Below, piece by piece: positions 42,601-43,967 of a stretch of DNA of 64,000 nt. Source of the DNA: Truepera sp. (GTDB lineage: Bacteria > Deinococcota > Deinococci > Deinococcales > Trueperaceae); contig JAVSMU010000001.1 in the NCBI GenBank assembly GCA_032027045.1, positions 1,573,756 to 1,637,755 on the forward strand, in the 5' to 3' direction. Every line of letters begins with the position of its first letter. Position 1 is the stretch's first letter. A model generated the notes under the pieces. That model saw only the letters and a list, made by a program, of their open reading frames with translations, was not told where the DNA came from and ran no database searches. The position numbers were made by a program, and so were the translations under genes.

Positions 42601-43083
42601 TCAGATGTGATCGTCGTGGCGCTCACGCCTGGGGTGCGCAGAGTAGGGCGAGTGGCTATCCACCACGAAGCCGTGAACCGGCGAGGTGCTCTCGAGTCGA
42701 ACGAAGTCCCCGACCGCCAGCCCTTGGGGGCGCTCGCCGAGGACGCCGACCACGAGGGGCGCGCCGGCATCGACCACGACGATCTTGTCCTCGATCGCGA
42801 TCACGGTGCCCCGCGCCTCCAAGCGGCTGATGCCTGCGGCGGCCAGTTCGGGCGGGCCGCCGCCGGGTTCCAGCTTCTCGAGGTCGTCGGTGATCGGGTG
42901 GATGATGGCCAGCTGCCGCCCAGGACGCGAGATGTAAGGCCCGGTGCGTTCGAAGAGTTGCAGGAGCGCGTTACCCACTCGGCACTCTAGTAGCGGGCTG
43001 CCCTCGATGCGTGGGAACACCTCGACCTCGGCGGCGTGCCGTTGCCAGCGCGATATGAACGCTTCGGGCGAGTCTTCGAACAT
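42601..43083 (-). CDS. small protein of unknown function
   Basis: The 160-residue cytoplasmic protein contains FISRWQRHAAEVEVFPRIEGS, VGNALLQLFERTGPYISRPGRQLAIIHPI, a VIAIEDKIVVVDAG core and a His-rich C-terminus. The later VVVDAGAPLVVGVLGERPQGLAVGDFV segment suggests a small beta-barrel, perhaps OB-like. I do not recognise a family. The ATG at 43083 follows TAGACT by 8 bases. It is divergent from the leader ORF and zinc-ribbon gene and could share their control. Confidence 0.6.
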   Translation of the reverse strand: MFEDSPEAFISRWQRHAAEVEVFPRIEGSPLLECRVGNALLQLFERTGPYISRPGRQLAIIHPITDDLEKLEPGGGPPELAAAGISRLEARGTVIAIEDKIVVVDAGAPLVVGVLGERPQGLAVGDFVRLESTSPVHGFVVDSHSPYSAHPRRERHDDHI

Positions 43084-43091
43084 GCTGGTTG

Positions 43092-43121
43092 AGTCTAACT
43101 CGCCGGGGCGCGTGCTAAACT
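43092..43121. promoter_or_regulatory. divergent leaderless promoters (unknown gene / leader ORF)
   Basis: TAGACT on the minus strand (43092-43097) lies 8 bases before the ATG at 43083. The extended element TGCTAAACT on the plus strand (43113-43121) lies 7 bases before a GTG at 43129. Confidence 0.65.
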
Positions 43122-43128
43122 CGGGGCC

Positions 43129-43200
43129 GTGATTCGAACTTCTTCCCTTATGCACAGCGAACCCTCGCCCATCAACTACCGGGCGGGGGTTCTTCGTTAG
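43129..43200 (+). CDS. 23-residue leader peptide, possible attenuator
   Basis: GTG at 43129 opens a 23-codon frame ending TAG at 43200. The peptide is VIRTSSLMHSEPSPINYRAGVLR. GTG follows an extended -10 by 7 bases, so initiation would be leaderless. Codons 1-10 are unusually A/T-ending for this genome (ATT, CGA, ACT, TCT, CTT). The second half lies in a hairpin. The stop is just before the zinc-ribbon gene's Shine-Dalgarno. The product itself may have no function; translation could set the RNA structure. Confidence 0.45.
   Translation: MIRTSSLMHSEPSPINYRAGVLR
43159..43192 (+). terminator. terminator/attenuator-like hairpin before the zinc-ribbon gene
   Basis: GAACCCTCGCCC pairs with GGGCGGGGGTTC in a 12-bp stem (one G-U) around the loop ATCAACTACC, followed by a T-rich TTCGTT. 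It lies inside the leader ORF and ends before the downstream Shine-Dalgarno. A ribosome reading the leader would melt it. Confidence 0.6.
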
Positions 43201-43210
43201 TGGAGGCGTG

Positions 43211-43915
43211 ATGCTGAACCGATTGGCCGAAGTGCAAACGTTCGATCTCAAGCTGGACGCCTTACGTGAGGACCGCGGCCAGGTCCCACATGAACTGGTC
43301 GCTACCGACGCGAAGAAGCGCCGGCTCGAGCAGCTCATGGCGCTCAAGGAGCAGGACCGCGACGTGCTACGCAAACGAGTGAACTCCAACGAGCTGGAGC
43401 TCAAGACGCTTCAGGAGCGCCGCCGAGCGGCCGCCGATTCCGCCGTTCGCGCCTCGACGTCGAAGGAGGCGTCGCAGTTCCAGAACCAGGAGCTGCAGTT
43501 CGCTACCCGGATCTCCGAGTTGGAGGAAGACACCATGCCGCTCCTGGAGAGCCAGGAGGCCCTGGAGCAGGAGCTGGCCGCTCTGCGCGACGAGTTGGAT
43601 GCGCTCGTGCCCGAACTCGAGGCGCTGCGCAAGGCCGAGGACGACCGCGTGGCTGCGGTCGACGCGCAGAGCGCAAGCGTGAAGGCCGAGCGCGAGGCGT
43701 TGGCGAGGGAGATCACGCCTTCGCTCCTGAAGCAGTACGAGCAGGTACGCAAAGCGCGGCGCGGCGTCGGTTTGGCCGAGGTCATCGGCAACAGCACCTG
43801 CAGCGGCTGCAACGTGCGCCTCCCCATCTTCGTGGTGCAACAGGTGCGCCGGGGCGAGGGCGTGACACGCTGCCCGAGTTGCGGCCGCATCCTCTATCAC
43901 AAGCAGGAGGACTGA
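43211..43915 (+). CDS. C4-type zinc ribbon coiled-coil protein (CdsZ-like)
   Basis: The 234-residue protein is a long coiled coil of Glu/Arg/Leu heptads (about 1-175), followed by CSGCNVRLPIFVVQQVRRGEGVTRCPSCGRILYH, which gives four zinc-binding Cys as two CxxC pairs. This is the DUF164/CdsZ family, whose members occur in many bacteria without a firm role. ATG at 43211 is preferred over GTG at 43208 because GGAGG (43202-43206) ends 4 bases before it. Expression may depend on the upstream leader. Confidence 0.85.
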   Translation: MLNRLAEVQTFDLKLDALREDRGQVPHELVATDAKKRRLEQLMALKEQDRDVLRKRVNSNELELKTLQERRRAAADSAVRASTSKEASQFQNQELQFATRISELEEDTMPLLESQEALEQELAALRDELDALVPELEALRKAEDDRVAAVDAQSASVKAEREALAREITPSLLKQYEQVRKARRGVGLAEVIGNSTCSGCNVRLPIFVVQQVRRGEGVTRCPSCGRILYHKQED

Positions 43916-43935
43916 ACCCGTTACAGAACAGTGAA

Positions 43936-43967
43936 GCGGGCCCGTGGCCTTCGGGTCACGGGCCCGC
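43936..43967. terminator. bidirectional terminator hairpin with UUCG loop
   Basis: GCGGGCCCGTGGCC pairs with GGTCACGGGCCCGC in a 14-bp stem with a TTCG tetraloop. It sits between two convergent genes. On the minus strand TTCACTGTTCTGT follows, giving a better U-rich tail for the LysM gene. Confidence 0.75.

Follow-up and report, generated by a model that had tools for sequence, protein, structure and literature searches.

In the pyrBI leader of Escherichia coli, the leader frame pyrL runs across an intrinsic terminator, at which a coupled ribosome prevents termination (PMC5021804, PMC4824070); this system relies on pausing of RNA polymerase. The attenuator transcript of Sinorhizobium meliloti trpL begins with the ATG of the leader ORF, which encodes the 14-residue leader peptide of the tryptophan attenuator, and ends in a terminator; it may be a leaderless mRNA (PMC7298713). 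Mycobacteria possess short leaderless ORFs, relying on cysteine codons, upstream of a gene led by a Shine–Dalgarno (SD) sequence (PMC4633059). Canestrari et al. (2020), as cited in PMC13236596, described mycobacterial leaderless upstream ORFs (uORFs) as translation attenuation. For E. coli 5'-uAUG mRNAs, in which an SD-led mRNA has a further start codon at its 5' end, the available portion of PMC4965119 mentions no conserved intrinsic terminator lying between the 5' start and the SD-led start.

Here we analyzed the leader of a CdsZ-family gene (cdsZ) in a 64,000-nucleotide stretch of the Truepera sp. genome (the window) and in its relatives. As in pyrBI, a uORF spans the hairpin, which is the case in 33 of 37 loci of the Trueperaceae, although frame 2 is about equally open. 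In contrast to pyrBI, the predicted start codon lies at the 5' end of the RNA and the hairpin about 32 nt further on. The putative 5'-terminal start codon and the terminator resemble trpL, but neither a conserved codon nor a conserved alternative structure was seen in the cdsZ leader. With the mycobacterial uORFs it shares the leaderless ORF ahead of an SD-led gene, but no conserved codon; the cysS leaders of the Trueperaceae (see below) match these more closely. With the E. coli 5'-uAUG mRNAs it shares the 5'-terminal start codon, but it has a conserved terminator-like element between the two starts. Rfam 15 covariance models gave no match to the leader at E-values up to 5, and no paper on CdsZ together with the zinc ribbon was found. 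Thus, we agree with the earlier note on this DNA, which knew of no described attenuator for the CdsZ family. All elements that the note had described in front of the zinc-ribbon gene were present where it had placed them:

43113–43121, forward strand: extended −10 promoter element TGCTAAACT (TGnTAnnnT in 37 of 38 Trueperaceae loci), followed by a 7-nt spacer up to the GTG at 43129
43129–43131, forward strand: GTG, putative 5'-terminal (leaderless) start codon at the predicted transcription start, from column conservation
43129–43200, forward strand: uORF of 23 codons, peptide not conserved, TAG stop at 43198–43200
43159–43170, forward strand: 5' arm of the putative terminator hairpin, from folding and covariation
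43171–43180, forward strand: hairpin loop of 10 nt, variable, from alignment and folding
43181–43192, forward strand: 3' arm of the hairpin, from folding and covariation
43193–43200, forward strand: T-rich tail TTCGTTAG, 61% T across the family Trueperaceae
43201: single T between the uORF stop TAG and GGAGG
43202–43206, forward strand: SD sequence GGAGG of cdsZ, invariant in alignments A2 and A3
43211–43915, forward strand: CdsZ-family gene of 234 codons for amino acids, with a CT398-like coiled coil and a C4 zinc ribbon, from Pfam

The start of cdsZ was set at the ATG 43211 rather than the alternative GTG 43208 by comparison, as relatives read ATG-CTN. Its product scored above the Pfam cut-offs for PF24481 (51.3 bits) and PF02591 (42.4 bits). 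The NCBIfam equivalog model for CdsZ, NF047363, matched with 2e-18, yet far under its cut-off. The label "CdsZ-family" is therefore safe, whereas "CdsZ equivalog" is not. The divergent neighbor, with its ATG at 43083 on the reverse strand, has the arrangement TAGACT-N8-ATG (43083–43097) and looks leaderless too, so that two leaderless-type promoters stand back to back; its protein had no match in Pfam. Downstream, a strong GC hairpin without a T-run occupies 43926–43964, in the gap that separates cdsZ from the convergent M23 peptidase gene. Ordinary 3' terminators here may be without T-runs.

The leader hairpin in the window consists of a 12-bp stem with one G-U pair and a 10-nt loop (−23.1 kcal/mol), and of 200 dinucleotide shuffles, 199 folded less well than the 72-nt leader (z −3.2). 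A simple terminator scan did not pick it up because the loop limit of the scan is 8 nt. A covariance model of the leader had a single significant match in the window genome, the cdsZ leader itself (next E-value, 0.19), which speaks against a multi-copy element in this genome.

To follow the layout across relatives, we compared the upstream regions of cdsZ orthologues from 38 loci of the Trueperaceae, within which the window genome is placed by its relatives, and from 22 loci outside this family but within its order. The succession of extended −10 element (TGnTAnnnT), start codon, hairpin, SD sequence, and cdsZ ATG is shared by 37 of the 38 Trueperaceae loci. A spacer of 6–8 nt, usually 7, separates the −10 element from the start codon, which is GTG in 35 and ATG in two of these 37. 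The locus search demanded a start codon at this spacing, with a purine-T-G expected by chance at one of the three spacings in less than 10% of cases; the −10 element itself is conserved nonetheless. Positions +1, +2, and +3 are conserved to 95%, 100%, and 100%, compared with about 30–57% for most neighboring columns, and +1 varies to A alone (ATG for GTG in two genomes). Judged by the alignment, an invariant T and G at +2 and +3 together with a change to A at +1 is the pattern of a start codon. The remaining locus, from Truepera sp. CROMO_A_191 (L018, identical to L089), has kept the −10 element but shows neither a start codon at the spacing nor a terminator. As the only Trueperaceae locus found to lack both, it represents a natural knock-out.

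The spacing between −10 element and start codon in the cdsZ leader matches that of true leaderless genes in the same genome (6–8 nt, mostly 7). In the window genome, 20 sites fit TGnTAnACT-N6-8-RTG, compared with 4 for a reversed control pattern, and most of the 20 lie at the start of long genes, among them asnS, gatB, and asd as identified by N-terminus. Of the further family matches to the leader model that were inspected, most were ordinary leaderless genes that share the promoter-GTG signature. Besides these, there were two unclear cases (L189, L191) and a uORF-like start (L185; G023:C3:20879-20952, reverse strand), a 5'-terminal GTG with the leaderless promoter signature shortly upstream of a gene that is SecA-like by its N-terminus. 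In the window genome, a leaderless 10-codon frame (L071; G000:C1:1923697-1923714, forward strand) precedes a copper-chaperone-like gene (MNKLIIEGMTCAHC) and overlaps a palindrome, CCACCCCCCCTGGGGTGGGG, that is similar to a CsoR-type operator.

Leaderless uORFs were also found upstream of cysS, in 13 of 20 Trueperaceae loci examined. That of the window genome lies at G000:C1:1278733-1278751 on the reverse strand (L066/L192); the others are L193–L195, L201–L208, and L210. They comprise 10–38 codons, 84–255 nt ahead of cysS, and in all 13 the pair CGA-TGT (Arg-Cys) is in frame with the 5'-terminal start, with no stop between. The conserved codon pair suggests that they are likely cysteine-responsive leaders, likely convergent with the mycobacterial leaderless cysteine uORFs. 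The 13 in-frame pairs are good evidence that leaderless uORFs in the Trueperaceae evidently serve as translated regulators. Set against these, the cdsZ uORF is no codon-sensing leader.

Returning to cdsZ, we scored a leader as carrying a terminator if its hairpin reached −15 kcal/mol or lower and the 8 bases after it included 4 T or more. This applied to 34 of the 37 Trueperaceae leaders, compared with 9% of shuffles and one of the 22 sister-family loci. L025 and L030 fell short in T, and the tails are weak in the most GC-rich genomes, while AT-richer species have strong terminator tails. In 36 aligned Trueperaceae leaders, 12 of 14 base pairs were altered on both sides. There were 95 double-change cells, compared with 35 in shuffled and at most 28 in slid controls, and the covariation score was 0.51 compared with 0.23; a subset of 14 sequences agreed with this. 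The fraction of T in the 8 nt after the hairpin is 0.61, whereas A is not enriched before it (0.19). Enrichment on the 3' side only makes the element directional, as expected for an intrinsic terminator acting on the cdsZ strand. The terminator-like hairpin of the earlier note is thus borne out by score, covariation, and one-sided tail. A DNA operator is disfavored by the same one-sidedness and by the arm sequences, which turn over while pairing is kept: between genera, arms and loop are fully replaced and pairing alone is retained. The hairpin keeps a nearly constant distance from the start codon (31.9 ± 3.4 nt), whereas its distance to cdsZ varies (27 ± 17 nt), which marks the part from promoter to terminator as the constrained unit. 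No alternative antiterminator pairing was seen in minimum-energy folds or alignments. We are highly confident that the Trueperaceae do have a conserved terminator leader in which a leaderless start codon has been retained.

The uORF itself is a different matter. While the start codon and the hairpin with its compensatory changes recur across 15 genera, the fixed 23-codon length, the stop position, and the 1-base spacing between stop and GGAGG, all of which had been proposed for the window, are not conserved. The stop falls between −66 and +17 nt relative to the cdsZ ATG, which excludes a conserved stop or a translational-coupling distance as a general rule. In 32 of the 37 loci it lies within −24 to +17 nt, in five loci 52–66 nt upstream, and in most relatives the frame enters the cdsZ region, with the stop at −13 to +17 nt. 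The four uORFs that do not span the whole hairpin end 0–9 nt ahead of it. In 32 of 37 loci the stop lies past the T-tail; a terminated transcript, were it translated, would there be a non-stop mRNA. Among close relatives, substitutions are spread evenly over the codon positions (28/26/28), and the GC content is flat (0.52/0.56/0.59) compared with cdsZ (0.77/0.41/0.80), which excludes a function at the peptide level. Openness hardly differs between frames 0 and 2, with a slight edge for frame 0, so that the open frame is no proof of translation. The A/T-ending codons remarked upon earlier are indeed there, with a GC3 of 0.44 in codons 2–10 compared with 0.86 in cdsZ; this points to sequence that is not under coding selection. 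No conserved regulatory codon, as would be expected for an amino acid leader-peptide attenuator of the trp, his, or cys type, was found in the cdsZ uORF across the Trueperaceae loci. Comparison of the loci shows a conserved start codon in the uORF but no conserved message.

The sister families (Thermus, Meiothermus, and others) indicate where this start codon came from. In all 22 of their loci cdsZ itself is leaderless, with the same promoter type 5–8 nt (mostly 6–7) before a start codon that is in frame with the protein. The 5'-terminal GTG of the Trueperaceae is the positional equivalent of this codon. The leaderless frames of L047 and L051 contain ...ATG-CTT-GA, so that the SD-led start of the Trueperaceae cdsZ corresponds to an internal methionine. 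Most simply, the uORF start would be the ancestral start codon of cdsZ, kept in the Trueperaceae after a hairpin and an SD site had been inserted behind it; this origin is drawn from a comparison of loci, not from a reconstructed tree. Relatives with the gene but without ORF and hairpin had been named beforehand as an observation that would speak against the leader. They do occur, in all sister families and in L018, and show the origin of the element rather than disproving it. Promoter, start codon, hairpin, covariation, and origin can all be read from the aligned DNA.

The general structure of an intrinsic-terminator attenuator, a sense-strand hairpin with a U-tract between promoter and gene, is present, and the function of the cdsZ leader is likely transcription attenuation. 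For its operation, we infer where transcription starts, that it does terminate, that the GTG is translated, and that translation is linked to readthrough. RNA polymerase would initiate at the GTG or within one base of it, transcribe about 60 nt, and then encounter the intrinsic terminator. As no promoter is evident between hairpin and cdsZ, the gene would be expressed by readthrough only, and if the hairpin terminates, the element is an attenuator. The ancestral leaderless GTG would have been retained as a site at which ribosomes enter the RNA at its 5' end. A 70S ribosome entering there during a pause of RNA polymerase in the leader would hinder folding of the hairpin and so raise readthrough, a pyrBI-like logic with leaderless initiation. 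Given pyrBI (PMC5021804, PMC4824070) and S. meliloti trpL (PMC7298713) as analogues, ribosome entry at the GTG is a plausible best candidate for the control. The attenuator reading is supported by the layout in 37 of 38 loci, the invariant start columns, the steady distance from start to hairpin, the covariation, the terminator score, the T-tail, and the uORFs running through the hairpin, as well as by the leaderless genes of the sister families, by the evidently translated cysS uORFs, and by L018, which lacks the start codon along with the hairpin. The translation step is weakened by the missing coding signature of the uORF and by the nearly equally open frame 2, and the weak tails of the most GC-rich genomes also count against the reading. 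Taken together, a family-specific transcription attenuator whose readthrough is raised by 70S entry at the 5'-terminal GTG is a tentative proposal, to which we give not quite an even chance.

In E. coli, translation cost a terminator 30 bp past a start codon only ~10% of its efficiency (PMC4824070). As the hairpin here follows its start codon by ~32 nt, the polymerase would have to pause or leaderless loading would have to be unusually fast, and the E. coli data speak against the simplest form of translation-relieved attenuation. This near insensitivity of early terminators, together with the unconstrained sequence and frame of the uORF, is what one would expect if the terminator fixed a low level of cdsZ transcription or answered to the state of polymerase or Nus factors; the GTG could then be retained for promoter reasons, unused by ribosomes. 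We regard this explanation as unlikely but worth serious consideration, since the invariant T and G and the change at +1 to A only follow a start-codon pattern, and since most of the other Trueperaceae matches of the leader model are true leaderless genes that share this promoter-GTG signature.

A 70S ribosome loaded at the GTG might instead travel on to the SD-led start of cdsZ or re-initiate there, with the hairpin serving mainly as an RNA spacer or stability element. The 5'-terminal AUG of E. coli SD-led mRNAs can indeed bind 70S ribosomes and affect downstream expression (PMC4965119), and the uORF stop is close to the cdsZ ATG in 32 of 37 loci. Such recruitment, however, leaves the one-sided T-tail and the strong tails of AT-richer species unexplained and does not suit the five loci with a distant upstream stop; we consider it quite improbable. 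Feedback, with CdsZ or another protein binding the leader hairpin and setting termination, is suggested by the CdsZ-family relative HP0958, which binds flaA mRNA through its zinc ribbon (PMC5947703), but a hairpin whose arm and loop sequences turn over completely between genera is ill-suited to a sequence-specific site, which makes this very unlikely. The constant geometry from promoter to terminator would also yield an RNA of about 65–70 nt, but a separate small transcript (an sRNA or tiny leaderless mRNA) acting in trans is the least probable reading of all, as conservation is confined to promoter, start codon, and pairing, leaving no conserved target region or peptide.

In the preferred reading, the attenuator has ribosome entry as its control. 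More narrowly, 70S loading at the extreme 5' start codon may be its sole cue, making it a sensor of leaderless initiation (ribosome availability) that would have arisen when a terminator separated a gene from its own leaderless start codon; this joint claim we hold to be rather doubtful.

Among bacteria, the Deinococcota belong to those with the most leaderless mRNAs, a class whose regulation is, to our knowledge, poorly known. The cdsZ locus offers a traceable change, in which a gene that is leaderless in all sister families gained a terminator and an SD site in the Trueperaceae while the old start codon was kept. If ribosome entry governs termination, the element would sense leaderless initiation in a minimal form and would offer a way into the poorly understood CdsZ family. 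Together with the Arg-Cys leaders of cysS, this points to leaderless uORFs as a more general theme of regulation in the Trueperaceae.
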